DNA of 40,457 nucleotides from Chloroflexota bacterium (GTDB lineage Bacteria; Chloroflexota; Anaerolineae; Aggregatilineales; Phototrophicaceae): NCBI GenBank assembly GCA_011523705.1, contig WTGC01000049.1, positions 1 through 40,457 on the forward strand. Reading direction: 5' to 3'. Positions 3,450 to 19,279 of this stretch are shown in pieces. The notes below the pieces were generated by a model, which was not told the origin of the DNA, did no database searches, and was given only the letters and a program-made list of their open reading frames with translations. Both the position numbers and the translations under genes were made by a program. Each line of letters opens with the position of its first letter. The first letter of the stretch is position 1.

Positions 3450-4385
3450 ATGAATCAGCATATCCCGATTATGGAGCGCGAGGTCATCCAGGCGCAGCGC
3501 GCCGATGATCCAACGGTCAAGCGATTGATCGATGGCACGGTCGGCGGCGGCGGGCATACGCTGGCGCTGATGCGCGCCGGCATTGATGAAGCTCTCGGCA
3601 TCGACCTGGACCAAAGCGCGATCAATCGGGCAAGAGAGCGCCTCAGTGACTTCGCGGAGCGCGCGCGCCTCGTCCGGGGCAGTTACATCGACATGGCGGC
3701 TCATGCTGAATCATTGGGCTGGCGCGAGGTTGATGCGATATTGCTGGATCTGGGCGCCTCCTCGCTGCAAATGGACGAGCCGGCGCGCGGCTTCTCGTTT
3801 CGCTTCGACGCGCCCCTGGACATGCGCTTTGATGGCGGAAGCGGCGGCGAGACCGCCCAGGATCTGGTCAATGGATTGGGAGCATCCGATCTGGCCAACC
3901 TGCTGTATCGCTATGGCGAGGAGCGGCATTCGCGCCGAATTGCGCGCGCGATCGTCGAGCAGCGACCGATCACCACCACGCGTCAACTAGCAGAGCTGGT
4001 GGCGCGCGTCAAACCAAGGCGGTCTCGGCTTTCGGCGAAAACGCATCCGGCGACGCAGGTCTTCCAGGCGCTGCGCATCGCCGTCAATCGGGAATTGGAG
4101 TCGGTCGAATGCGTGCTTCCCGTCGCTGTCAATCTTCTCCGACCAGGGGGGCGGCTGGCGGTGCTATCTTTTCATAGCCTGGAAGACCGCATCGTCAAGC
4201 GGACCTTCCGAAAGCTGTCCATGACGGTGATAGCGCCGCCTGGCATGGCTTCGATCGAGGAAACGCTCGCTCAAGTTCGTCCAGTTTATCGCAAGCCCAT
4301 CGTCCCCAGCGGCGAAGAAATCAGGCGGAATCCACGCAGCCGCAGCGCGAAACTTCGCGTTGTAGAAAAGCTGGAACGGGCTTAA
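3450..4385 (+). CDS. rsmH: 16S rRNA (cytosine(1402)-N4)-methyltransferase RsmH (MraW)
   Basis: RsmH transfers a methyl group from S-adenosylmethionine to N4 of C1402 in 16S rRNA, in the ribosomal P site. The 311-residue length is normal. The start HIPIMEREV and the SAM-binding loop DGTVGGGGHT (residues 28-37) are diagnostic. They are followed by GIDLDQSAINRA and by ILLDLGASSLQMDEPARGFS. The C-terminal part holds HPATQVFQALRIAVNREL and LSFHSLEDRIVKR, both family signatures. It is the first gene of the division and cell-wall cluster, as usual, but mraZ, which normally precedes it, is not here. No strong Shine-Dalgarno sequence precedes the ATG. Repeat copy A sits directly upstream. Confidence 0.97.
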   Translation: MNQHIPIMEREVIQAQRADDPTVKRLIDGTVGGGGHTLALMRAGIDEALGIDLDQSAINRARERLSDFAERARLVRGSYIDMAAHAESLGWREVDAILLDLGASSLQMDEPARGFSFRFDAPLDMRFDGGSGGETAQDLVNGLGASDLANLLYRYGEERHSRRIARAIVEQRPITTTRQLAELVARVKPRRSRLSAKTHPATQVFQALRIAVNRELESVECVLPVAVNLLRPGGRLAVLSFHSLEDRIVKRTFRKLSMTVIAPPGMASIEETLAQVRPVYRKPIVPSGEEIRRNPRSRSAKLRVVEKLERA

Positions 4386-4491
4386 GCCGAGTTGCGTGAT
4401 CTCCTTATCTGAATACATTTATAAGCATACATGGCGCTGCCCTTGCGGTATCGTCCGCGTTGAATTCTCGATTGCCAGATATTTGAAATTT

Positions 4492-4962
4492 ATGTCGCAG
4501 ACCTGGTTTCAGCATACCTTCAGTCGCAAACGTTTTCGCACGCGCAACCAGGCGACCGCCATGGCGATTCTGGGCGTCGCCGTATTGCTGCTCTTGGGCG
4601 GCTTGTATCTTTCGCAGGTGGCTTCCTTCGCCATCACCAACCGAGAGATTGAGGACTTGATCAGCCGACGTGATCAACTGAAACGACAGAATGAGCAGCT
4701 TGTCGGGGAAATCGCCAGCTTCCGCACCGTGCCGCGCTTATATGCGCGCGCGGTGGAGATCGGCTTTCGCCCGGCGACCAACAGCGACATCGATTACTTG
4801 CTCATCGAGGGATATAATCCGCAGCGAGAGCTTGCGCTATTGGAAACGACAGCGCCAAGCCAGCAGCTGGAAGCGGCGCCGGTTTACGCAGAGAGCTTTA
4901 GCGGCTGGCTCGAGCGGCAATTCACCCTCCTGCGAGACCAATTCGAATCTTTTGGCGAGTGA
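4492..4962 (+). CDS. ftsL: FtsL/DivIC-like septum formation protein
   Basis: The protein has about 156 residues when started at the ATG at 4492 (MSQTWFQHTF). An in-frame ATG at 4396 would add 32 residues that do not look like the family. It has a basic N-terminus, one membrane span near 25-45 (MAILGVAVLLLLGGLYLSQV), then a coiled coil (NREIEDLISRRDQLKRQNEQ) and a periplasm-type tail. This is the bitopic layout of FtsL/DivIC proteins, which link FtsQ to the FtsW-FtsI pair. Sequence alone is weak for FtsL, but its place between rsmH and the FtsI-type gene is the standard ftsL position. Its stop overlaps the GTG start of the PBP gene by four bases, so the two are probably coupled. Confidence 0.8.
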   Translation: MSQTWFQHTFSRKRFRTRNQATAMAILGVAVLLLLGGLYLSQVASFAITNREIEDLISRRDQLKRQNEQLVGEIASFRTVPRLYARAVEIGFRPATNSDIDYLLIEGYNPQRELALLETTAPSQQLEAAPVYAESFSGWLERQFTLLRDQFESFGE

Positions 4963-6728
4963 CGTTAGCGATTGATCGTATGCAAGCACCGAGTCCACAG
5001 CAATCGACAATCCAGGCTCGACTGCCATTTGTAGCCATCTTCCTCATGCTGATGGCGGCTTACCTGGTGATCAATCTGGCGAATTTTCAGTTCTTCCCGC
5101 GGTCGGTGCGACAGGAGTTGGAAAAAATCGGCAGCTCGGTGACGAACACAACGCTGCGCGTGCCGGCCGAGCGCGGTCTCGTATTCGACCGAGACGGCGA
5201 GCCGCTCGCCTTTAACATCGTCCAGTATCGTCTGGGCGTCAGCCCGGCGCTGGTGGCTGATGACGAGGCTTTGATGAAAAGTCTGGCCGCGATCCTGGAC
5301 ATCAATGAGTTCGATCTCTTTCGCAAGATCACCAGCGAGAATGTTTGGGAATTCGTCGCCGGTCCGATCTCGGCGGAACAGGGGCAAGCTATCGCCGCGC
5401 TGGAGGAAATCTCCCTCGGGCTGGAGGAGATTCCCAAGCGCTTCTATCCGCAAGGGACGCTTGCCGCGCACGTTGTCGGCATCGTGCTGGATGAAGGGCT
5501 GGTCGGCTCACTCGGCGTCGAAGGCGCCTACAATGATACGCTGTCCGGGCGCGTCCTGGACCTTTCGATCAGCAATGTCCCCTTTTATCTGCCGGAAGAC
5601 CGACCGGCGGAGCAGCGCGGCAAAGATATTGTACTGACGCTGGACCGCGATGTGCAGTTTTGGGTCGAAAGCGAATTACAGGTGGCGGTGGAGGAATATA
5701 AAGCCTACCGCGGAACCGTGATTGTGATGGACCCGCGCAACGGCGATGTGCTGGCGCTGGCCAACTACCCCACGATGGATCCAAACCGCTTTCTGGAAAT
5801 TGAAGACCCCGGTCTGCTGGAGAATCCCGCAGTACAGGGCGCTTATGAACCGGGATCAATTATGCAAGTGCTAACGGTCGCCAGCGCACTTGAAACCGGA
5901 GCGATTTCGCCCTATTGGACTTATAATGACATCGGTCAATTGGAAGTGGGCGGGCAAGATATCTACAATCGACACTTTCAGGCGCATGGCACTGCCGATG
6001 CCGCGACCGTGCTGATCCGCTCGCTGAATGCGGGGGCGGCCACCATTGGGCTGGAGATGGGCACGGCGCAATTCTACAGCATGATGCGCGCCTTTGGCTT
6101 TGGCCAACCCACCGGCGTCGGTCTCTTCGCCGAAGACCCCGGCGAACTGAAGATTCCGGGAGACACGAACTGGAACGAAAGTTACCTGGGCCACAACAGT
6201 TTCGGACAGGATCTGCAGGTGACGTCCATGCAGTTGATTACCGCCTTTAGCGCGCTCGCCAATGACGGCATTATGCGGCAGCCGCGCATCGTCCGCCAGG
6301 TGATCGGCGAAGCGGGGGTGGAAGAGGCGCGCCCGACAACCGTTCGGCGCGTCGTATCCGCGGAAACAGCCGCGATCGTCCGCGATATGATGATCCGCGT
6401 GGTGCGCGAAGGCGCGACCGGCGCGTTTATGCGCGGCTATACCATCGCGGGCAAGCCGGGCACTGCCTGGATTTCGACCGCGGTCGGTCAGGAATATGGC
6501 GAACACTCGTCAGTAGTCACCTTCGTCGGCGCGCTGCCGGCGCATGATCCGCAAGCGGTCGTTTTGGTCAAGCTGGACCGACCCAATGAATATTACGGCT
6601 ACGCTGTCACCCCGCACGTCTTCAAGAGAATCGCAGACCGTCTTGTGATTTTGCTTGAAATACCGGATGATGATGTCCGCAATCGCCTTGAAGCGGCGAA
6701 GGCAGACGTTACGACCGACGAGAGCTAG
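4959..6728 (+). CDS. ftsI: FtsI/PBP2-type penicillin-binding protein with altered active-site motifs
   Basis: This 589-residue protein has the class B PBP layout: one N-terminal membrane span (about 23-45), a dimerisation/pedestal domain with LRVPAERGLVFDRDGEPLA (near 64-85), and a C-terminal transpeptidase domain from about 225. The domain is well preserved around the active site (GTVIVMDPRNGDVLALANYP, GAYEPGS, NSFGQDLQVTSMQ). However, the SxxK motif reads S300-I-M-Q303, so the general-base lysine is Gln. The KTG/KSG motif reads K499-P-G-T. SxN is kept as S355-L-N357. Acylation by the usual mechanism should fail, so a structural or FtsW-activating role is likely. The start is GTG at 4959, overlapping ftsL, or ATG at 4980. 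A single-base error could explain the Gln but not also the Pro. Confidence 0.9.
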   Translation: MTLAIDRMQAPSPQQSTIQARLPFVAIFLMLMAAYLVINLANFQFFPRSVRQELEKIGSSVTNTTLRVPAERGLVFDRDGEPLAFNIVQYRLGVSPALVADDEALMKSLAAILDINEFDLFRKITSENVWEFVAGPISAEQGQAIAALEEISLGLEEIPKRFYPQGTLAAHVVGIVLDEGLVGSLGVEGAYNDTLSGRVLDLSISNVPFYLPEDRPAEQRGKDIVLTLDRDVQFWVESELQVAVEEYKAYRGTVIVMDPRNGDVLALANYPTMDPNRFLEIEDPGLLENPAVQGAYEPGSIMQVLTVASALETGAISPYWTYNDIGQLEVGGQDIYNRHFQAHGTADAATVLIRSLNAGAATIGLEMGTAQFYSMMRAFGFGQPTGVGLFAEDPGELKIPGDTNWNESYLGHNSFGQDLQVTSMQLITAFSALANDGIMRQPRIVRQVIGEAGVEEARPTTVRRVVSAETAAIVRDMMIRVVREGATGAFMRGYTIAGKPGTAWISTAVGQEYGEHSSVVTFVGALPAHDPQAVVLVKLDRPNEYYGYAVTPHVFKRIADRLVILLEIPDDDVRNRLEAAKADVTTDES

Positions 6729-6740
6729 GCGCGAGGATTC

Positions 6741-7766
6741 ATGCACGGACAATTCCCATTGGCGCTCAGCGTTGGTGGCGCGACCTTTTTGCTCGGCGTG
6801 ATCTGGGGCGGTCCCTTTGTCGAGATCCTGCATCGATTCAATATGGGCAAACAGATCCGCGCCGAACTGATGGACAGCCATCACGCTGGGAAGATCGGCA
6901 CGCCGACGATGGGCGGCATCATGATCATCCTGCCGACCATCGCCGTCACCCTGTCGCTTAACATCTCGCGGATTGTCGACGAAGGCGAAGGACGCAGCAT
7001 CCTTTTGCCGCTCATCGTGCTGATAGGATTCGCCCTTCTCGGCTTGATCGATGATTGGGAGGGCATCCAGACCTCTCGCGGCAACGTGGGCGAAGGGCTC
7101 TCCGGCAAACTGAAATTCGCCTTTCAAATTCTGCTGGCGCTCAGCGCCTCGACAGTCATCTCCTACTTCGAATTCTCGTACGCCAACAGTTTGGAGCTTC
7201 CCCTGATAGGCGCGGAGATCCCCCTGCATCCCGTGCTATTCATCGCGATCAGCACCTTCATCATTGTCGCGACCTCCAACGCGACCAATTTCACCGATGG
7301 GCTGGACGGGCTGGCCGGCATCATCACCGCCAGCGCATTCGGCGCCTACGGCGTCATCGCCTTCGTGCATGATCAGATCTACATGGTCGAACTCTGCTTC
7401 GTCATCGTCGGCGCCTGTTTCGCCTTTCTGTGGTACAACGCGCATCCGGCGCAGCTGTTCATGGGCGATACCGGCTCGCTGGCTTTGGGCGCCACCCTGG
7501 GCACCGTGGCGGTGATGACCGGGCAATGGCTGCTGCTGCCGATTATCGCGATCGTGCCGGTAATGGAAATCTTAAGCGTGATCCTGCAAGTCGCGTCAGC
7601 CAAGCTGAGCCGGCGCTTTTATGGCGTTGACATTCGGCCCTTCCGCCGAACGCCTATCCATCATCATTTTGAATTGGGCGGCTGGAGTGAAACGCAGATC
7701 GTGCAGCGCTTCTGGCTGATTGGCATTCTGAGCGCCTTCGTCGGCGTCGCGCTGGCATTGCTGTGA
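6741..7766 (+). CDS. mraY: Phospho-N-acetylmuramoyl-pentapeptide-transferase MraY
   Basis: MraY attaches phospho-MurNAc-pentapeptide to undecaprenyl phosphate, giving lipid I at the inner membrane. The 341-residue protein has about ten membrane spans. Family signatures are present: KIGTPTMGGIMI near residue 51, LLGLIDDWEGI near 98 (the Asp pair), NATNFTDGLDGLAGI, AQLFMGDTGSLALG with the metal/catalytic Asp, and RRTPIHHHFELGGWSE with the His triad. The usual Lys of DDxxK is Gly here (DDWEG), which I think is a lineage variant rather than a defect. GAGG lies just before the ATG. The gene follows the PBP gene after a 12-base gap. Repeat copy B begins soon after its stop. Confidence 0.97.
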   Translation: MHGQFPLALSVGGATFLLGVIWGGPFVEILHRFNMGKQIRAELMDSHHAGKIGTPTMGGIMIILPTIAVTLSLNISRIVDEGEGRSILLPLIVLIGFALLGLIDDWEGIQTSRGNVGEGLSGKLKFAFQILLALSASTVISYFEFSYANSLELPLIGAEIPLHPVLFIAISTFIIVATSNATNFTDGLDGLAGIITASAFGAYGVIAFVHDQIYMVELCFVIVGACFAFLWYNAHPAQLFMGDTGSLALGATLGTVAVMTGQWLLLPIIAIVPVMEILSVILQVASAKLSRRFYGVDIRPFRRTPIHHHFELGGWSETQIVQRFWLIGILSAFVGVALALL

Positions 7767-8207
7767 GGACGAGACGAGGGTCGCCCGGGAAATCAACCCC
7801 ACCCCCGGCCCCCTCCCCGACGAGTCAGGGAGGGGGAGTTGACAATGACGGATTGCGTCTGGTTGGCGGGCGACTCACAGAGCCGCCCCTGTTTACGTTG
7901 CACGTTGCAAGAGGGCCTTACAGCGCCGCGCGTAGACACTGCGGTTCAAACGCCCCTACACGTTTGCGCTCTGATTAAGATCCGTAGGGGCGAGGCGGTG
8001 ACTCGCCCACAGTATTCCGTCTGCACAACAACACGCAAGGTATTTTGCGTGAGCCGCTGCAATGCAGCGCGTGTGTCTACAGATGGTATCTGTGGTGGGC
8101 GAGCGACCTGATGGATCGCTGTCGCAATTCGCAGTCTGTGAAGAGCAATCCAATATAATTGGTAGTGTTTGCTCGCTTGCGCTAGCGCTTGAGGCTGCTT
8201 GGCAATA
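7767..8207. repeat. mraY/murD gap with interspersed repeat copy B and a GC-rich repeat
   Basis: This 441-base gap has no gene. Positions 7798-7842 hold a C-rich/G-rich hairpin element (CCTCCC ... GGGAGG) that recurs inverted at about 9749-9796. A GGGCGACTC-ACA-GAGCCGCCC hairpin lies at 7868-7888. Positions 7891-8081 are the reverse complement of 3106-3320 and end with GCGCGTGTGTCTACA. The remaining 8082-8207 shows no repeat and may hold the murD promoter and leader, but I cannot identify clear hexamers. Confidence 0.85.
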
Positions 8208-9617
8208 ATGGCTGAACGAGATTCCCTGGCTGGCAAGAAGGTCGTCGTATTTGGATTCGGCCGCGGCGGCAAAGCCTTGGCTCGCTGGCTGCCGACGGTG
8301 GGCGCAGAAGTCGCGGTGACCGACAGCCGCAGCGCGAAAGAGCTCGAACTGCGCCGCCGCGACTATCCCGGGGTCCGCTTTCACCTCGGCGGGCATCGGG
8401 AAGACGTCCTCATTGGGGCGCGCTGCGTCTGCGTTTCCGGCGGCGTTCCGCTCGACAATCCCGTCCTGCAGCTGGCGCAGCAGCGCGGCCTGCCGCTGAC
8501 TAACGACGCGCAGCTTTTCCTCGAGCGCTGCCCGGCGCCCGTCATCGGCATTACCGGCAGCGCGGGCAAGACGACCACGTCAACCTTGGTGGCGAAAATC
8601 GTGGAACGGGCTGGCTACAAGGTGTGGCTCGGCGGCAATATCGGCAATCCGCTCATCGAGGACCTGCCGAAAATCAAGGCGAGCGACATCGCCGTCATGG
8701 AGCTTTCCAGCTTTCAACTGGATTTGATGACGAGCAGCCCGCAAGTCGCCGCCGTGCTCAATCTGACGCCCAATCACCTTGACCGGCACGGCAGCTTTGA
8801 GCGCTATGCGTCGGCGAAAGCTAACATTCTGCGCTACCAGCGAAAGAATGATGTGGCCGTGCTCGGCTGGGATGACGCGGGCAGCCGGGCGCTGGAGCGA
8901 ATCGTCGAGGGCGAGTTGCTGACATTCAGCCGCTACGAGATGGCGCCGGATGGCGCATTCATGCTGGGAAGCCGACTGCTCGTCGCCGGTTCAGCCAGTT
9001 ATGACGCCAGCCCGCACGTCGTCTGCGAGCGGGAGGAGATCCCCTTGCGCGGCGATCACAATGTGCTAAACGCGCTCGCCGCATGCGCCATCAGCGGCTC
9101 GCTGGGTCTGGCGATCGACCGGCCGGGCGTCATGCCTGAAGTGATGCGCGAGGCGATCCGCGCCTTCACAGCGGTGGAGCACCGGCTGGAAACCGTGCGC
9201 GCGCTCGAGGGCGTCTCCTGGGTGAATGACAGCATTGCCACGGCGCCCGAGCGCACCTTGGCCGCGCTCGTCAGCTATGATGAGCCGCTCGTGCTGCTGC
9301 TTGGGGGCGCCGATAAAGACCTGCCCTGGGAGGCGGCGATACAGTTCGCGCTTCGCAAGGCGCGGCATATCATCGTCTTCGGCGAAGATGGCGACAAACA
9401 GGTGGCGACCAAAGTCATGGAGCTGCTTTCCAAGATGCGCGTCGGCGATGACCAGGTCTCCCGCGCGGTGACATTGGAAGACGCGGTCGCGCGCGCTGCG
9501 GCAATTGCGCAAGCGGGGGATGTCGTTTTGCTATCGCCTGGCGGGACCAGCTACGACGCCTACGCCGATTTTGCTGAACGCGGGGAGCACTTTCGCCAAT
9601 TGGTATCTCAATTATAA
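8208..9617 (+). CDS. murD: UDP-N-acetylmuramoyl-L-alanine--D-glutamate ligase MurD
   Basis: MurD adds D-Glu to UDP-MurNAc-L-Ala in the cytoplasm using ATP. From the ATG at 8208 the protein has 469 residues. It shows an N-terminal nucleotide-binding fold (VVVFGFGRGGKALA), the Mur-ligase P-loop GITGSAGKTTT (about 114-124), ELSSFQLD, NLTPNHLDRHGSF, and the C-terminal signature WVNDSIATAPERT with LLLGGADKDLPW. The last two distinguish MurD from the other Mur ligases. A TTG at 8199 in the same frame is a less likely start. It is separated from mraY by a repeat-filled gap, so it may have its own promoter. Confidence 0.95.
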   Translation: MAERDSLAGKKVVVFGFGRGGKALARWLPTVGAEVAVTDSRSAKELELRRRDYPGVRFHLGGHREDVLIGARCVCVSGGVPLDNPVLQLAQQRGLPLTNDAQLFLERCPAPVIGITGSAGKTTTSTLVAKIVERAGYKVWLGGNIGNPLIEDLPKIKASDIAVMELSSFQLDLMTSSPQVAAVLNLTPNHLDRHGSFERYASAKANILRYQRKNDVAVLGWDDAGSRALERIVEGELLTFSRYEMAPDGAFMLGSRLLVAGSASYDASPHVVCEREEIPLRGDHNVLNALAACAISGSLGLAIDRPGVMPEVMREAIRAFTAVEHRLETVRALEGVSWVNDSIATAPERTLAALVSYDEPLVLLLGGADKDLPWEAAIQFALRKARHIIVFGEDGDKQVATKVMELLSKMRVGDDQVSRAVTLEDAVARAAAIAQAGDVVLLSPGGTSYDAYADFAERGEHFRQLVSQL

Positions 9618-9954
9618 TGGAATGCAAGAATGTCCATTAGAGAATCAACCTGACAGAAGTGACTGAGTTGTCGGCAGACTATTGAATGAATGTAGACACA
9701 CGCGCAGATCGGCAGCAACTCACGCCAATTGCCTTGTATCCAGCAGCGTTTAGCTCCCCCTGCCTAGCTCGCTGGGGAGGGGGCCGGGGGGGTAGGGTGG
9801 CCGCCCGCAATGTAATCCGCGGCGACCCAATAGGTCGCCCGTCTTCCAGTGTTCGCATTTGCGGGCGACATGGTATGTCGCCCCTGCAATCTGTGTCCGA
9901 TAGATCATTTTTGACCTTGAGCGCCTGGACCTGCCCTATGCAAAGAGAGAAGGC
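9618..9954. repeat. murD/ftsW gap with hairpin repeats (copy C)
   Basis: This 337-base gap has no gene. TGTAGACACACGCGC recurs at 9689-9703, the same end sequence as repeats A and B. At about 9749-9796 lies the inverted partner of the GC-rich element at 7798-7842 (CTCCCC ... GGGGAGGGGGCC). Two perfect hairpins follow: GGCGACC-CAATA-GGTCGCC (9821-9839) and GGGCGACA-TGGTA-TGTCGCCC (9863-9883). They belong to the same GGGCGAC/GTCGCCC palindrome family as those at 3388 and 7868. No good promoter spacing is seen before ftsW. Confidence 0.8.
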
Positions 9955-11277
9955 ATGAGCGAGCGAGCCAACCTGGATTCCAGGCAGCGTCGCATCCGCC
10001 GCCGACTGCGACGGGGCGCTGGTTTGCCCGCGGTCAGCGGCGAGGGCGCGCGCCCGGTCACTCATCCGAGGCGGAATTTTCTAGCGTCGCTGGACAAGCC
10101 GATGGCAGCGGTTGTCGTCCTGCTGCTGGCCATTGGATCGCTGATGGTGTTCAGCTCCACCTGGGACTGGAGCAACAAGACCTATGGCACGGCGACCGGC
10201 TTTTTTGTTGAAGAGCACTTGCGCAATGTCGTGGTTTCGGCGCTGGCGCTCGTCATCTTCGCCGCGATCGATTATCGCTTTTGGAAGAAGTTCGCCTTTT
10301 GGCTGCTGCTGGTTACGATCGTTCTTCTGGTCGCTGTATTGGCATTTGGCGAAGTCATATTCGGCGCCAAACGCTCTTTCACCGACGGCCGCTTGCAGCC
10401 GGGCGAGTTGGCAGAGTTCGCGATAGTCCTCTATATGGCGGCTTGGCTCGGCTCCAAGAGCGCGAAGGTGGACAGCGTTTTGCTTGGCATGCTGCCATTC
10501 CTCTTTGTAGTCGGCACCGTCAGCTTCTTGATCGTTCAACAACCGGATCTGAGCTCAGCCGCCATCGTTGCGCTGACGGCCGGGGTCATGTTTTTTGTCG
10601 CCGGCGCCAATATCCTGCAAATGACGGCGGTCGGCGGCATTGCCGGCGCGGTCAGTCTGGTGGTTATCGAAAGCTGGCCCTATGCCCAGCGCCGCATCGC
10701 CGACTTCCTGGCCGGCTTCAGCGATGTCACCTTGTCGGATTACCATACCCTGCAGGCGATAACTGCCTTCCTGCGCGGCGGCTGGATCGGCGTGGGCATC
10801 GGCCATTCGGAGCAGAAGTTCGGGGCGCTGCCGGCGCCGCATACCGATAGCATTTTCGCCATCATTGGGGAAGAACTGGGCGTTTTGGGCGCGGCTATCG
10901 TGGTCGCGCTTTACGTCGTCTTCGCCATCCGCGGCTTTCAGTTTGCGCGCCGGGCGAACGACAACTTCGGGTCGCTGCTCTGCGTCGGATTCACCTCCTG
11001 GGTGATCATTCAGGCGCTGCTGAATATCGCGGTGATGACGGGCGCCGTGCCGTCAACCGGCGTGCCCTTGCCCTTCATCAGCTTTGGCGGCTCCTCATTA
11101 TTTGTAGTGATGATCGGCGTTGGGCTGATGCTGAGCGTTCAGCGCGTGGCGACGCGGCGCAAATCGACTGCGGAACGGAGAAGCGATATTGCGAGTTTTG
11201 ATCGGAGCTGGCGGGACCGGCGGGCACGTCTATCCCGCGCTGGCAACCGCCCAGGCGCTGCTGCGGGACCAGGGTGA
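9955..11277 (+). CDS. ftsW: FtsW septal peptidoglycan polymerase (SEDS family)
   Basis: FtsW polymerises lipid II into glycan strands at the septum, working with an FtsI-type PBP. The 440-residue protein has a long basic cytoplasmic N-terminus (about 45 residues) and about ten membrane spans. SEDS signatures are present: LIVQQPDLSSAA, LRGGWIGVGIGHSEQKFGAL, PAPHTDSIFAIIGEELG with the catalytic Asp at about 298, and VPSTGVPLPFISFGGSS. The polymerase site therefore looks intact, unlike its presumed PBP partner upstream. The basic C-terminal tail (SWRDRRARLSRAG) is read in another frame over the start of murG, so the two genes overlap by 89 bases. AGAGAGAAGG precedes the ATG. Confidence 0.95.
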   Translation: MSERANLDSRQRRIRRRLRRGAGLPAVSGEGARPVTHPRRNFLASLDKPMAAVVVLLLAIGSLMVFSSTWDWSNKTYGTATGFFVEEHLRNVVVSALALVIFAAIDYRFWKKFAFWLLLVTIVLLVAVLAFGEVIFGAKRSFTDGRLQPGELAEFAIVLYMAAWLGSKSAKVDSVLLGMLPFLFVVGTVSFLIVQQPDLSSAAIVALTAGVMFFVAGANILQMTAVGGIAGAVSLVVIESWPYAQRRIADFLAGFSDVTLSDYHTLQAITAFLRGGWIGVGIGHSEQKFGALPAPHTDSIFAIIGEELGVLGAAIVVALYVVFAIRGFQFARRANDNFGSLLCVGFTSWVIIQALLNIAVMTGAVPSTGVPLPFISFGGSSLFVVMIGVGLMLSVQRVATRRKSTAERRSDIASFDRSWRDRRARLSRAGNRPGAAAGPG

Positions 11278-12292
11278 GGCGCGGGAACTGCATTTCGTCG
11301 GCGCTGTGGGGGGCATGGAGCGAAAGCTGGTACGAGAATCGGCGCTCGAAATCGCCAGCTATCACGAAGTATTCGCCGGTCCTTTACACGGCGTCAATCC
11401 GCTCAGCGCCTTCGTCAGCCTGGTCAAATTGGGCATCGGCGCCATGCAGTCGCTGGTCAAGCTCTTGCGGATCCGCCCCCGGGTCGTATTGCTGACGGGC
11501 GGCTGGGCCAACTTGCCGATAGCCTTGGCCGCGCGCCTTCTCGGCATCCCCATTGTGATCCATTTGCCCGATATCGAACCGGGGCTGACGATCAAGGTTT
11601 TGCAGCGTTTCGCCCGAACAGTCGCCATCACCGTCAAGGAGTCCGCGCGCTATTTTCCAACGGGAAAGACGATCGTCACCGGCTATCCCTTGCAAGAGAA
11701 TCGGCTGAGCGCCACGCGGGAATCGGCTCTCGAGCGCTTCCAGCTGGATTCCCGCCGCCGGACGCTGCTGGTCTTCGGCGGCAGCCGCGGCGCGCGCAGC
11801 ATCAATATCGCTCTGGGCGCCTGTCTCGGGCGTCTGCTGGCCGATGGCTTGCAAATCCTGCACATCACAGGCGAACTGGATTGGCAGCGGGTGACGCAAG
11901 AAACGGGGGAATGGAAAGACCATCCAGATTATCAGGCTTTCCCATATTTGCATGACGATATGGGGCTGGCTTTTGCCGCCGCCGATTTAGTGCTTTGCCG
12001 CGCCGGCGCCAGCACACTGGCCGAGCTGCCGCTTTTCGCGCTGCCGGCGATTCTCGTGCCCTATCCTCATGCCTGGCGCTATCAAAAGGTCAACGCCGAT
12101 TATCTCAGCGAGCGCGGCGCGGCGATTCGGCTGAACGACGAGGATCTGTCCGAAAGACTGTATGATGAGATTGCGCAGCTGATTCACGACGATGCGCGTC
12201 TTCGCTGGATGAGCGATCGGTCGCGCGCGTTGGCCAACCCGGATGGCGCGGCCGCATTGGCGCGCTTGCTAATCGAGACGGGCGCGAACTGA
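11189..12292 (+). CDS. murG: UDP-GlcNAc:lipid I GlcNAc-transferase MurG
   Basis: MurG adds GlcNAc to lipid I on the inner face of the membrane, giving lipid II. It starts with TTG at 11189, with GGAG eight bases upstream; there is no other start before the conserved RVLIGAGGTGGHVYPALA. The 367-residue GT28 protein keeps the second donor-site region LVFGGSRGARSIN (about 190-202), DMGLAFAAADLVLCRAGAST, ELPLFALPAILVPYPHA, and Gln in RYQKVNADYL. Its first 89 bases lie inside ftsW. Its stop overlaps the ATG of the next gene (TGATG), so translation from ftsW through the first CvpA-like gene is probably coupled. Confidence 0.96.
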   Translation: MRVLIGAGGTGGHVYPALATAQALLRDQGEARELHFVGAVGGMERKLVRESALEIASYHEVFAGPLHGVNPLSAFVSLVKLGIGAMQSLVKLLRIRPRVVLLTGGWANLPIALAARLLGIPIVIHLPDIEPGLTIKVLQRFARTVAITVKESARYFPTGKTIVTGYPLQENRLSATRESALERFQLDSRRRTLLVFGGSRGARSINIALGACLGRLLADGLQILHITGELDWQRVTQETGEWKDHPDYQAFPYLHDDMGLAFAAADLVLCRAGASTLAELPLFALPAILVPYPHAWRYQKVNADYLSERGAAIRLNDEDLSERLYDEIAQLIHDDARLRWMSDRSRALANPDGAAALARLLIETGAN

Positions 12293-12840
12293 TGTTGGAA
12301 TTGGCGACGGTGGTCTGGGTGTTTGTATTGATCTTCGCCCTGGTCGGCTTGGCGCGCGGCTGGACCAAGGAGATCATCGCCATGGCCGGCATCATGCTGG
12401 GGCTGTTCGCCTTGCATCAGTTTGACGCCGCCATCCGCGAGCAATTGCTGGTCAATTTCTCCTCGCAGGGGAAGTTTCTCTTTCAAAGCGCGATCCTGAT
12501 GATCATCGCCTTTTTCGCTTACCAGACTCGCGCCCTGGCGCGCCGCCGAGCGCAAGACGCGCCTGACGAAAGCGGACGCGACGCCTTGCAGTCGAAGGCG
12601 CTGGGCGGCATCGTCGGCGCGCTCAATGGTTACCTGCTGAGCGGCTCCATCTGGTATTTCATGCACATCAACGAGTATCCGCTGGCGCCTTATATTGAAG
12701 CGCCGGCAGCCGGTTCATTGAGCTTGAGCGTAGTGAGCAATCTGCCGCTTCATGTGCTGGCTGATGGGCCGGGCAGTTCTGGCGACTTGCTTTCCCTGTC
12801 GCTCATCGGCTTGTTTGTTGTCGTGTTAGTCTTGATCTAG
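12292..12840 (+). CDS. CvpA-like membrane protein, paralogue 1
   Basis: A 182-residue integral membrane protein with four or more hydrophobic segments (about 5-22, 27-42, 60-78, 98-116, and a C-terminal one at 160-182). The start WVFVLIFALVGLARGWTKEI, with a glycine and RGW after the first span, resembles CvpA/colicin V production family proteins. That family is broadly linked to the cell envelope, but its biochemical role is unsettled. The motif NGYLLSGSIWYFMHINEYP (about 111-129) recurs in the next gene. It begins on the murG stop codon (TGATG). A place inside a cell-wall cluster suggests a role in division or envelope assembly, which is inference. Confidence 0.6.
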   Translation: MLELATVVWVFVLIFALVGLARGWTKEIIAMAGIMLGLFALHQFDAAIREQLLVNFSSQGKFLFQSAILMIIAFFAYQTRALARRRAQDAPDESGRDALQSKALGGIVGALNGYLLSGSIWYFMHINEYPLAPYIEAPAAGSLSLSVVSNLPLHVLADGPGSSGDLLSLSLIGLFVVVLVLI

Positions 12841-12860: not shown

Positions 12861-13388
12861 ATGATTAGTCTCTTATCGCTGATGTGGACGACCGCCGTAT
12901 TCTTCGCCTTGACGGGCGCGCTGCGGGGCTGGCGGCGGGAGTTGGTCGGCGCCTGCGGGATCACGCTGGGCTTCTTCGCCATTTTCCAATTTGACAGCCT
13001 CCTGCGCGGCAGTCTCTTTCTGCTGCTGACTGACGAACAGACATTTCTATTGCAGATGGCCGCCCTGCTCTGCATCACCGCCATCGCCTATCGCAGTCGG
13101 TTGGCCGTTCGCGCCGATGATGGCGCTGGCAGAGCCAAGAACATGGCATTTGGCGCCGCCGTCGGCTTCTTCAACGGTTACCTCATCGCCGGTTCCACCT
13201 GGTACTTCCTCGATATCAATCGTTATCCCTTTTCGCAGCTGCTATCGGCGCCGGCCGACGCATCGGTCAGTTTCCTGGGCGCCGGCGCCATGCCGATCGT
13301 CGTGCTTGGCGGGGGATTGGCTGGCGGCGGCGGGACCCTTGCGGTCGCTGTACTTGCGATCCTGGCGGTCATCGTCCTGTTCCTCTAG
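12861..13388 (+). CDS. CvpA-like membrane protein, paralogue 2
   Basis: A 175-residue membrane protein similar to the preceding gene in length, hydrophobic pattern and motifs. The first span is followed by RGWRRELVGACGITLGFFA. The shared motif reads NGYLIAGSTWYFLDINRYP, then LLSAP where the first copy has YIEAP. The C-terminus is a glycine-rich hydrophobic segment (GGGLAGGGGTLAVAV) ending in VIVLFL. The pair is therefore a tandem duplication that has diverged widely. It lies 20 bases after paralogue 1 and 40 bases before murC. No catalytic motif is visible; a membrane scaffold or transporter-like role is possible but unproven. Confidence 0.6.
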   Translation: MISLLSLMWTTAVFFALTGALRGWRRELVGACGITLGFFAIFQFDSLLRGSLFLLLTDEQTFLLQMAALLCITAIAYRSRLAVRADDGAGRAKNMAFGAAVGFFNGYLIAGSTWYFLDINRYPFSQLLSAPADASVSFLGAGAMPIVVLGGGLAGGGGTLAVAVLAILAVIVLFL

Positions 13389-15832: not shown

Positions 15833-16666
15833 GTGGCAAGTCACGTCCAGGCTCATAGGCGGCAACCGGATCGGGCGCCAGGCGTGTTGCATCGGGCGGC
15901 GCCGGGGACCGTGCCGAAGCGAACGGCGACGGCGCGAATTGGCGGGCGCCGCGCCTTGTCCCGCTGGCGCCTTTGCAGCGCCGTCACGTTCGTCTTGTTC
16001 TGCGCCATCTTGTTGCTTTTTTTTAGCAGTGACGTCTTCTATGTGCGGTCGATTCAAGTGCGAGGAAACAATCATATCACGCGCGCGGAGGTATTCGCCT
16101 ATGCCGACATTGCCGATTACCACATGTTCTGGCTGGACCCGGAGCAAATCCGTCAAAGCGTCTTGCGCTCGGCATCGATTGCCGATATCGCAGTTGAGCT
16201 CGGTTGGCCGCCAAATCTGATCACCATCATCGTGCAGGAACGGCAGCCAGCCATCGTGTGGACGGAGGCCGGCGACGAGACCTGGATTGACCTCCAGGGA
16301 CGGGTCATGCAAGCCCGCGCCGAGATGCCCAACCTGCTGCGCGTCAATCTCATTGCCGGCGATTATGGCGGACCGAGACCGAGCGCGGAAGATTTCACCG
16401 GAGACATGGTGTTGGGCGCGCTGCGGCTCAAGGAGATCCTGCCGGCGGGCGAGCACTTGAGCTTCCATCCCATACACGGGCTGGGATGGACCAACGAATT
16501 GGGTTGGCAGGTATGGATGGGCAGTGATTCGGCCGCAGTGATGAGCGAGAAAGTCAAAATGTATCATGCGCTGGTGGAGAATATAATCAGTCGCGCAATT
16601 CCGATTGCCGAACTGAACATCGCCAATCCAGATGCGCCATTCTACAGCGTAATATGGGGGCTTTAG
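15833..16666 (+). CDS. ftsQ: Cell division protein FtsQ (DivIB type)
   Basis: FtsQ is a bitopic protein that recruits FtsL, FtsI and FtsW to the divisome. It has a long basic cytoplasmic N-terminus, one membrane span at about 47-66 (AVTFVLFCAILLLFF), and then a POTRA domain beginning VFYVRSIQVRGNNHITRAEV with the usual V..I.V.G...I pattern. A beta-rich FtsQ domain follows (ITIIVQERQPAIVW, WIDLQGRV). The start is uncertain: GTG at 15833 has GGAAG seven bases upstream and gives 277 residues, while GTG at 15911 would give about 251. It lies between murB and ftsA, the classic ftsQ position. The 98 bases between murB and the chosen start show no obvious element. Confidence 0.88.
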   Translation: MASHVQAHRRQPDRAPGVLHRAAPGTVPKRTATARIGGRRALSRWRLCSAVTFVLFCAILLLFFSSDVFYVRSIQVRGNNHITRAEVFAYADIADYHMFWLDPEQIRQSVLRSASIADIAVELGWPPNLITIIVQERQPAIVWTEAGDETWIDLQGRVMQARAEMPNLLRVNLIAGDYGGPRPSAEDFTGDMVLGALRLKEILPAGEHLSFHPIHGLGWTNELGWQVWMGSDSAAVMSEKVKMYHALVENIISRAIPIAELNIANPDAPFYSVIWGL

Positions 16667-16672
16667 ATTGAC

Positions 16673-17908
16673 ATGGGCGACTTAGTAGTAGGCTTGGATG
16701 TTGGCACTCACAAGATTTGCACAATCGTTGGCGAAGTGCGTCCCGAAGATGTCTACGTCGTCGGTTTAGGCATTGAACCGAGCGACGGGATGAAGAAAGG
16801 CGTTGTCAATGATGTTGGCGCGCTCTCTTCCGCCATTGCCAAGTCGGTCCGCAAGGCGGAGAAATCCAGCGGCTACGATATCAACCGCGCCTTCGTCAGC
16901 GTGGCTGGCAGTCATATTTCTTCCCTGACCAGCCGGGGCTTGGCGACCATCGTCGGCTCGCGCAGCGTGGGACCGGCCGATCTTGACAAGGCGATGAGCG
17001 TCGCCCGCAATATCGCGATACCTCACAACCGCGAGATTTTGCACGTGGTGCCGCGCAGCTACACGCTCGACGGGCAGGAGGGCATTCGCAGTCCTTTGGG
17101 CATGCACTGCTTCCGGCTGGAAGTGGACGCCCATATCATCACCGCCTCGACGACAAGCCTGGCCAATCTCGAAGACGCGGTGGAATCGGCCGGCGTGCTG
17201 GTCGATCGCTTCATCCTCAATCCGCTGGCGGCCGGCGATGCCGTCTTGACCGACCACGAACGCGAGATGGGCGCCGTGGTCATCGATATCGGCGGCGGCA
17301 CCACCGATCTGGCCATTTTCATCGACGGCACCGTATGGCATACGGCGATCATCCCGGTCGGCGGCAATCATGTCACCCAGGACATCACCTACTGGATGCG
17401 CGTTCCCTTCGGCTTGGCCGAGCAAGTCAAAATTCAACGCGGTCACGCCGATATGAACGCGGTAAGCGAATCGGAAGTCTTCCCCGTAGAGCCCTTCGGC
17501 GGCGAGATTCTCCCGGTTTCGCGGCGCGATCTGGCGATGGTGATCGAAGCGCGTTTCGAGGAGATCTTTGAGCTGGTGGAGAAAGAAATCAAACGCTCCG
17601 GTTATGCCGGTCTGCTGCGGGCGGGCTCGGTCATCACCGGCGGCAGCTCGCAATTGCCCGGGTATCGCGATCTTGCGTCGCGCATCTTGAATGTGCCAGT
17701 GCGCCTGGCGCATCCGGAAAAAATCACCGGCATCGCCGACACCCTTAAGAATCCATCCTATAGCACCAGTGTTGGCTTGCTGCGCCTGGGGCTGGAGATG
17801 GACGCCATGATCGAGCCCGAAGCAGTCGACACGATGGGCATTCCGGTAAACCAGTGGGGCCGCCGCATGAACGAGATTCTGCGCCGCTTTCTGCCGCAAG
17901 ATGATTGA
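16673..17908 (+). CDS. ftsA: Cell division protein FtsA
   Basis: FtsA is an actin-like ATPase that tethers FtsZ filaments to the membrane. The 411-residue protein starts VVGLDVGTHKICTIVGEV, the phosphate-1 loop, and has a 1C subdomain (DVYVVGLGIEPSDGMKKG), the phosphate-2 loop AVVIDIGGGTTDLAIF (about 201-216), and the adenosine motif SVITGGSSQLPGY (about 320-332). The C-terminus NEILRRFLPQDD is a short amphipathic helix of the kind used as the FtsA membrane anchor. It starts six bases after ftsQ and is followed by a 117-base spacer containing a likely ftsZ promoter. Confidence 0.97.
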   Translation: MGDLVVGLDVGTHKICTIVGEVRPEDVYVVGLGIEPSDGMKKGVVNDVGALSSAIAKSVRKAEKSSGYDINRAFVSVAGSHISSLTSRGLATIVGSRSVGPADLDKAMSVARNIAIPHNREILHVVPRSYTLDGQEGIRSPLGMHCFRLEVDAHIITASTTSLANLEDAVESAGVLVDRFILNPLAAGDAVLTDHEREMGAVVIDIGGGTTDLAIFIDGTVWHTAIIPVGGNHVTQDITYWMRVPFGLAEQVKIQRGHADMNAVSESEVFPVEPFGGEILPVSRRDLAMVIEARFEEIFELVEKEIKRSGYAGLLRAGSVITGGSSQLPGYRDLASRILNVPVRLAHPEKITGIADTLKNPSYSTSVGLLRLGLEMDAMIEPEAVDTMGIPVNQWGRRMNEILRRFLPQDD

Positions 17909-17981: not shown

Positions 17982-18040
17982 GAGCAATGGAACGAGCCGC
18001 ACACGTTGCTTTGACGTGCTGATTCATGAGGATAGACATA

Positions 18041-19279
18041 ATGGTCAATGATTTGATAACAGGGGAAAACTTCGCGCAGATCAAAGTCGTTGGTGTCGGC
18101 GGCGGCGGTGGAAATGCCGTCAATCGCATGATCAACGAAGGTCTGGGCGGCGTTGAGTTTATTGCGGTAAACACCGATAACCAGGCGCTGATGCTGTCCA
18201 AAGCGAAGACGCGCGTCCGCATCGGAGACAAGTTGACGCGCGGGCTTGGCGCCGGCGGCAATCCGGAAATTGGGCGCAAAGCGGCCGAGGAGAGTTCGGA
18301 AGACCTGCTAGAGGTGCTCCGCGGCTCCGATATGATTTTCGTCGCTTGCGGCATGGGCGGCGGCACCGGCACCGGCGCGTCGCCGATCATCGCGCAGATC
18401 GCCAAGGAGCTCGGCGCATTGACAATCGGCGTCGTAACCCGCCCCTTCACCTTCGAGGGCACGCGCCGCGCGCAATTGGCCAAGACCGGTATTGAGGCGC
18501 TTAAGAGCCAGGTCGATACGCTGATCGTGATTCCGAACGACCGCCTGCTGCAAATGGCGGACAAGCGCTCGACGCTGCAGCAAGCCTTCTCGCTGGCCGA
18601 TGATGTGCTGCGTCAAGGCATCCAAGGCATTTCCGAATTGATTACTGTGCCGGGCTTGATCAACCTCGACTTCGCCGATGTTCGCACGGTGATGTCGGAA
18701 GGCGGCGCCGCCCTGATGGCGGTGGGACGGGCGGCCGGCGACGACCGCGCGCGTTCCGCAGCCGAGCTGGCGATCACCAGCGGGTTGCTTGATGTCACGA
18801 TTGACGGCGCCCGCGGCATCCTGTTCTCGATCACGGGAGGCAGCGACCTGACCCTGTTCGAGGTGAACGAAGCGGCCGCCATCATCAAAGACAGCGCGCA
18901 TCCGGAATGTAACTTGATCTTCGGCGCCCACATCGACGAGAGCATGGGCGATGAGGTTCATATCACCGTGATTGCGACCGGATTCGAGCGCAGCCGGCTG
19001 GAGACGAATATGAAGGAAGCGGGCGCCTTGCCGATTCGCCAGGCGACGCCCCTGCCGCAGCCGCCAGTGGTGCAGCGGCAAATTTATGAAGAAGTGGAAC
19101 TTCAGGCGCCGGGTGAAAACGCGGCGGCCGGCGCTGGATCGGGGTCGTCATCGCCATTCCAGCGCAACCGTCTCGCGCCGCCTTCTCCACCACAGGAAGA
19201 TTCGCGGACCTACGACAACATCGACCCCAAGAACACCGAGCTGCCGGCATTCCTGCGGAAGCGCAACCGGCGTCAATAA
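18041..19279 (+). CDS. ftsZ: Cell division protein FtsZ
   Basis: FtsZ is the tubulin-like GTPase that builds the division ring. I prefer the ATG at 18041 because AGGA lies eight bases before it; the in-frame ATG at 18026 would add five residues. Signatures are [17 protein letters not shown], the tubulin GTP loop [12 protein letters not shown] near 105, the T7 loop [12 protein letters not shown] with the catalytic Asp, and [11 protein letters not shown]. After residue 315 comes a low-complexity Pro/Gln/Gly linker. The C-terminal peptide [14 protein letters not shown] closely matches the conserved tail that binds FtsA and other partners (IPAFLRK type). A terminator follows the gene. Confidence 0.98.

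Follow-up and report, generated by a model that had tools for sequence, protein, structure and literature searches.

The FtsI homolog encoded in the window (the whole 40,457-nucleotide stretch of Chloroflexota DNA analyzed here) is probably a pseudo-transpeptidase that is retained as a structural activator of the FtsW glycan polymerase, with the septal cross-links coming mainly from one or both MecA_N class B penicillin-binding proteins (PBPs) of the same genome. A probability of about two in three is given to this reading, which is drawn from sequence comparison. It is reached because the catalytic lysine is lost clade-wide, the other active site motifs have decayed through repeated changes, the gene remains under purifying selection, and the relaxation appears confined to the transpeptidase domain, with the membrane helix and the N-domain still constrained. 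The original prediction of an inactive transpeptidase kept as the partner of FtsW is thereby supported.

The FtsI Homolog and the Division Cluster

The ftsI gene (4959-6728, forward strand) encodes a protein of 589 amino acids with an N-terminal membrane helix, a PBP_dimer/pedestal region and a transpeptidase-fold domain that lacks the catalytic lysine. Pfam recognizes the PBP_dimer (54.7 bits) and Transpeptidase (219.5 bits) domains, and none of the 21 NCBIfam families listed exceeds its curated cut-off, the best being spoVD_pbp with 298.9 bits against 688. The former SxxK motif (5856-5867) is preceded by YEPG and reads S300-I-M-Q303, with TCA at 5856-5858 and the Gln codon CAA at 5865-5867. 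The SxN motif (6021-6029) is retained as S355-L-N357, and the former K[TS]G motif (6453-6461) reads AGK499-P-G501-T. Translation therefore bears out both substitutions originally noticed, the missing SxxK lysine and KPG in place of KTG/KSG, and SxN is the only one of the three motifs of an active D,D-transpeptidase that the window FtsI still carries. An alternative reading of CAA and CAG is needless, as both Gln codons are used at the lysine position among relatives.

The relatives of known structure are FtsI/PBP3 and SpoVD. Two alignments to them match Q303 to the catalytic lysine, and P500 to the Thr or Ser in the middle of K[TS]G. An AlphaFold2 model built with a 60-row alignment has a mean pLDDT of 78.3 and a pTM of 0.72; most 10-residue blocks of the transpeptidase domain reach 90 or more, the stretches 49-68 and 161-219 fall below 50, parts of the N-domain being of low confidence, and the membrane helix spans residues 13-43. 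Foldseek and VIA-align group the model with PBP3/FtsI and SpoVD structures, including the FtsI of the FtsWIQBL complex 8bh1, with an rmsd of 7-8 over the full length and about 2 for the transpeptidase domain alone. The PBP3-like transpeptidase fold is thus predicted to be retained with the catalytic residues gone. This fold, the domains and helix, and the place in the division (dcw) cluster identify the protein as a member of the FtsI family.

The cluster has the order rsmH, FtsL-like protein, ftsI, mraY, murD, ftsW, murG, murC, murB, ftsQ, ftsA, ftsZ, in which the names rsmH, mraY, murD, murG, murC, murB and ftsA rest on sequence and gene order. It starts, all on the forward strand, with rsmH (mraW, 3450-4385) and a small membrane protein directly upstream of ftsI (4396-4962), which has no Pfam match and is putatively FtsL/DivIC-like by position and layout. 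The next gene downstream of ftsI, mraY (6741-7766), is assigned by a sequence motif as well as by order. Further along are ftsW (9955-11277), ftsQ (15833-16666, with an FtsQ-type POTRA domain), ftsA (16673-17908) and ftsZ (18026-19279), again on the forward strand. Two adjacent Colicin V/CvpA-like membrane proteins (12292-12840 and 12861-13388; PF02674, the second below the Pfam cut-off) lie between murG and murC.

FtsW is a SEDS glycan polymerase by its FTSW_RODA_SPOVE domain (283.3 bits) and its conserved Asp region, HTDSIFAIIGEE, which presumably contains the catalytic Asp. The retention of this region, which had been predicted for the window, extends to the relatives: 29 of the 30 named loci contain the pattern HTDSIFA[IV][IV]GEE, the stretch of the remaining one (L020) being without ftsW, and the relative order of ftsI and ftsW is shared by 29 of the 30. 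The genome contains three SEDS proteins, namely the window FtsW, one on contig C67, which lies near an intact MrdA-type PBP2 and is presumably RodA, and a third on contig C227.

Spread of the Lysine Loss

FtsI was obtained from 59 of 61 genomes around the window genome, G037 and G055 giving none. Within the genus the SxxK lysine is missing in 33 of 34 genomes (G000-G032; 31 Gln and 2 Leu), and the exception, G033, is the most divergent member. Its FtsI has intact SxxK, SxN and K[TS]G motifs, as do all 25 FtsI proteins from other genera and families. The best 120 of 3203 database homologs carry Gln (105), Leu (1), His (1) or Lys (13) at this position. Among the 30 named loci from Chloroflexota MAGs (L009-L038) there are 28 Gln, 2 Leu and no Lys; Lys is present in a 31st locus, a Coxiellaceae record (L039) that is 31% identical. 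Some homologs of the lysine-less FtsI are recorded in databases as penicillin-binding protein 2.

The original prediction called for an alignment of the clade to see whether Gln and Pro are conserved. The answer is positive for Gln, which occupies the lysine position in 135 of 139 non-Lys rows, and mixed for the middle position of K[TS]G, where Pro is found in 104 of the 139 rows and Ala in 29.

Evolutionary History of the Active Site

The 139 non-Lys rows comprise related genomes and near-duplicate proteins from two sources. Because the rows are not independent events, parsimony counts are a better measure of change than row counts.

In a FastTree phylogeny of 178 rows, calculated with the motif columns removed and with P0097 (end unalignable) and P0001 (duplicate of G000) dropped from the trees, all 139 non-Lys rows cluster in a single group (SH 97). 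Its sister group consists of 14 intact SVMK/SIMK rows, the 13 Lys database homologs and G033, and has its own fork (SH 85); the SxxK, SLN and KTG motifs of these rows are intact. An IQ-TREE run on 44 rows, likewise with the motif columns removed, recovers the non-Lys clade with UFBoot/SH-aLRT values of 100/95 and one change of state. These trees indicate a single loss of the lysine, placed at the base of the clade. The lysine appears to have been lost first and the other motifs later, because two early branches still have them: P0110 reads SVLQ, SLN, KTG and P0102 reads SLMQ, SLN, KSG.

Within the non-Lys clade parsimony gives 9 changes at S300, 11 at N357, 8 at K499, 29 at column 339, 20 at column 418 and 9 at column 511, against none at any of these columns in the Lys rows. 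The SxN motif, predicted to be intact, is so in the window protein and not throughout the clade: N357 is kept in 90 of 139 rows, the others having D, H, R, Q, T, K, S or Y. K499 has changed to M, R, V, I and T. Among 575 columns, relaxation is strongest at 339, 418 and 511, which hold an invariant D, G and Y in 39 of 39 Lys rows; presumably they belong to the PBP substrate site, and column 418 follows the GQ of GQG in intact rows.

Within this otherwise decaying active site a few features persist. The nine changes at column 300 are all between Ser and Thr, so that the hydroxyl is never lost (S/T in 139 of 139 rows), Gln303 is near fixed, and Gly501 is invariant (139 of 139). The S/T and Gln retention appears to represent more constraint than free drift would predict, which counts against the pseudo-transpeptidase reading. 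Judging from this pattern, the kept hydroxyl and Gln, together with Gly501, may reflect a non-catalytic role of the pocket.

Selection on the Lysine-less Gene

The lysine-less ftsI gene is under strong purifying selection. Pairwise dN/dS values (NG86) range from 0.054 to 0.126 over 13 close non-Lys pairs, and from 0.026 to 0.131 over four intact pairs.

The distribution of constraint along the protein was described by a change ratio, defined as the changes per column in the non-Lys rows divided by those in the Lys rows, of which only the differences between regions are meaningful because the two row sets differ in size. Read in this way, the ratio is 0.80 (95% interval 0.53-1.08) for the membrane helix and 1.04 (0.90-1.21) for the N-domain, and it rises to 1.61 (1.46-1.77) for the whole transpeptidase domain and 1.50 (1.36-1.63) for that domain away from the motifs. 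It reaches 3.10 (2.28-4.36) in the 47 columns around the motifs, where, of 72 columns unchanged in the Lys rows, 8 of 18 have at least four changes in the non-Lys clade as opposed to 4 of 54 elsewhere (Fisher p 0.001); both 3.10 and this p value are somewhat flattered, as the windows were set around the known motifs and three relaxed columns. The four columns that are relaxed like motif columns though away from the motifs are 109, 191, 459 and 553. In the intact control, which sets the 14 rows of the sister group against the 25 outgroup rows, the ratio hardly varies (0.14, 0.12 and 0.15, with 0.10 at the motifs). Relaxed constraint thus appears to be confined to the transpeptidase domain, the helix and N-domain being as constrained as in the relatives. 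Such a pattern would be expected if selection maintained the protein for its structure and not for catalysis.

A Second Degenerate PBP-SEDS Pair

The genome also encodes a degenerate PbpA-like protein with a Transpeptidase domain (L007). At locus L102 on contig C227 of the window genome, G000, a PbpA-like class B PBP stands beside the third SEDS gene (7283-8692 and 8693-10000, both on the reverse strand); the neighboring frames look FHA-like by eye. This partner of the third SEDS protein has matches in 54 of the 61 genomes. In all 50 that were read (the matches in G039, G049, G058 and G059 being left out) the SxxK lysine and K[TS]G are absent, across the order. The lysine position holds Gln in 17 of 21 proteins from outside the genus (3 Glu, 1 His) and mostly Tyr within it (21 of 29); in 31 of 50 proteins Gly stands where the serine would be. 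By these comparisons the PbpA-like pair is older, more decayed and order-wide relative to the FtsI case, and these bacteria have evolved degenerate class B PBP-SEDS pairs on at least two occasions, each time with a Lys-to-Gln step.

The recurrence of Gln bears on an alternative explanation of the FtsI case, in which the pocket is that of a non-enzyme that uses the S/T hydroxyl, Gln and Gly501 to bind a stem peptide or a lipid-linked strand, and so acts as a substrate sensor gating FtsW. The persistence of these three residues in the clade, the good confidence with which the transpeptidase fold is predicted, and the Gln of most pseudo-PbpA proteins outside the genus all speak for it. However, columns 339, 418, 511, 357 and 499, each invariant in the Lys rows, have changed 8 to 29 times; Met, Arg, Ile, Val or Thr in place of Lys499 would hardly be tolerable in a conserved ligand site; the Ser position of the pseudo-PbpA proteins is mostly Gly; and S/T and Gln may merely pack the active site helix. 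A sensor of this kind is therefore considered unlikely.

Other Transpeptidases of the Genome

If the window FtsI does not cross-link, another enzyme would have to. A genome-wide search for other class B PBPs and L,D-transpeptidases, which the original prediction had proposed, found several intact candidates: two MecA_N class B PBPs (L002 and L003; C96:3235-4242 and C21:12307-13296), the MrdA-type PBP2 (L004) and four YkuD matches. Two class A PBPs (L005, L006) are further intact alternatives, and a third protein matches PF00912 but no transpeptidase domain above threshold.

Both L002 and L003 combine MecA_N, PBP_dimer and Transpeptidase domains with intact SVMK or SVYK, SCN and KTG motifs and are thus PBPs of the MecA_N type, the MecA_N match of L003 barely clearing the Pfam cut-off of 22 bits (22.2). 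Each has a match to a simple lipobox pattern near the N-terminus (LAAC and LSAC), a feature shared by 24 of 33 L002-type and 25 of 33 L003-type rows. The L002 type occurs in all 33 non-Lys genomes and the L003 type in 32 of them (all except G013, which is 87% complete). Wherever the last motif is readable it is intact, in 31 of 31 rows of the L002 type and 25 of 25 of the L003 type. By Pfam counts, 31 of the 33 non-Lys genomes have two MecA_N proteins, one has three (one of them below cut-off) and one has one; 22 of the other 28 genomes have one and six have two. For G034 Pfam missed an additional MecA_N fragment, and the L003-type protein of this genome is a 405-amino-acid fragment. The MecA_N tree was calculated without L105 and L115 (partial), L130 (duplicate of L002) and L202 (no match).

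Both MecA_N types co-occur with an intact FtsI in G034 and G035, where they have long branches. This lends no support to the idea that a MecA_N PBP was gained at the moment of lysine loss, and the paralogs seem to predate the loss. No linkage of L002 or L003 to division genes was found in the ten neighboring frames searched. Because of these two observations the MecA_N PBPs are best regarded as a permissive background and not as a gain that accompanied the loss; a single evolutionary event cannot prove that the loss depended on them. The sole intact genus member, G033, is without the L002 type (its best match, at 35%, is its own L003-type protein), an observation from one genome. At L257 a DUF348/G5-domain protein of resuscitation-factor-like layout (5617-7194, forward strand) adjoins the L003 gene (7197-9542, reverse strand) on the opposite strand.

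Septal cross-linking might instead be carried out, beside an inactive FtsI, by the class A PBPs or the L,D-transpeptidases. The genome has the genes for this in L005, L006 and the four YkuD matches, and a precedent exists in Clostridioides difficile, in which the main synthase of the vegetative septum is a class A PBP (PMC12713402, PMC10693644). Against this stands the fact that neither set is enlarged in the non-Lys genomes, with 3-4 YkuD matches compared with 2-8 in the other 28 genomes, and 3-4 PF00912 matches compared with 2-4, whereas two MecA_N proteins are the rule in the former and one in the latter. This explanation is judged slightly less probable still than the sensor.

Proposed Role of FtsI in Septum Formation

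By combining these observations it is possible to outline how the pseudo-transpeptidase and the MecA_N PBPs might share the work. The window FtsI would no longer be acylated. Its pedestal would still contact loop 4 of FtsW and permit polymerization, as in the RodA-PBP2 and FtsWI complexes, for which pedestal-loop 4 activation of the polymerase is described (PMC8078798). FtsW, switched on by the pseudo-FtsI, would polymerize the glycan, and one or both of the MecA_N PBPs would make most of the septal cross-links. A similar division of labor can be forced upon Bacillus subtilis, where cells divide with a PBP2B that has no catalytic activity, provided that PBP3, which has a MecA-N domain, is present, the structural role of PBP2B being kept (PMC5656894). 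The PBP2B gene is still essential, presumably for FtsW activation (PMC12713402).

A bolder version of the pseudo-transpeptidase proposal is less likely. FtsI would be naturally non-enzymatic throughout the lineage, evolution having divided the SEDS-class B PBP pair into FtsW as the polymerase and FtsI as a pure activator or sensor whose S/T-x-x-Q remnant reads the strand or stem peptide. The MecA_N PBPs would cross-link the septum, pseudo-class B PBPs would be recurrent regulators of SEDS proteins, with the independently degenerate PbpA-like pair as a second case of Lys replaced by Gln, and the core divisome would be blind to beta-lactams.

The enzyme might also still be active by an altered mechanism, with Gln and other residues replacing Lys, as the kept nucleophile hydroxyl and the strong purifying selection could suggest. 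Glutamine, however, is not expected to act as a general base in PBP chemistry, the position can also hold Leu or His, and the SxN and K[TS]G motifs have degenerated alongside it, which makes this improbable. A sequencing, binning or pseudogene artifact is more improbable yet and can be set aside: all the data are draft or metagenome assemblies, but independent MAGs and contigs of up to 4.98 Mb agree, dN/dS is 0.05-0.13, and the ftsI/ftsW order is conserved in nearly all named loci.

Comparison with Known Systems

FtsI is ordinarily a penicillin-sensitive enzyme of wall cross-linking. In the literature compared here, the roles of septal FtsI as an enzyme and as a switch of FtsW have been separated only by engineered mutants. 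The present clade looks like a natural and long-standing separation of the two, accompanied by an intact sister group, so that sequence constraint alone can map the parts of FtsI that are needed without catalysis. It also suggests a route to penicillin-insensitive division without drug selection, and it illustrates that domain-based naming can overcall enzymes, as in the records labeled penicillin-binding protein 2. No natural pseudo-FtsI was found among the matches listed in the open-licence PMC literature, which supports its absence from print weakly.

Compared with FtsI/PBP3 of known structure (Pseudomonas aeruginosa PBP3 and C. difficile SpoVD), the window FtsI has Gln for the SxxK lysine and KPG for K[TS]G, and the catalytic residues of its clade are under relaxed constraint. 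The closest parallel is B. subtilis PBP2B(S309A) with PBP3 (Sassine et al. 2017, PMC5656894), where a dead division class B PBP is structurally needed and a MecA_N-domain class B PBP is at hand. PBP2B(S309A) is, however, a laboratory mutant of an active wild type, whereas the dead state in the present clade looks natural, fixed and old. SpoVD(S311A) of C. difficile, with PBP3 and SpoVE, is similar in that catalysis by the SEDS partner is partly dispensable and the protein is needed; it differs in being an engineered mutant of a sporulation protein, and C. difficile PBP3 helps without catalysis of its own (PMC12713402). Like PBP2A (MecA) of Staphylococcus aureus, L002 and L003 are MecA_N-domain class B PBPs and would be alternative transpeptidases beside native ones. 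In S. aureus the native PBPs are blocked by the drug, whereas in these Chloroflexota the native FtsI is itself without the catalytic lysine.
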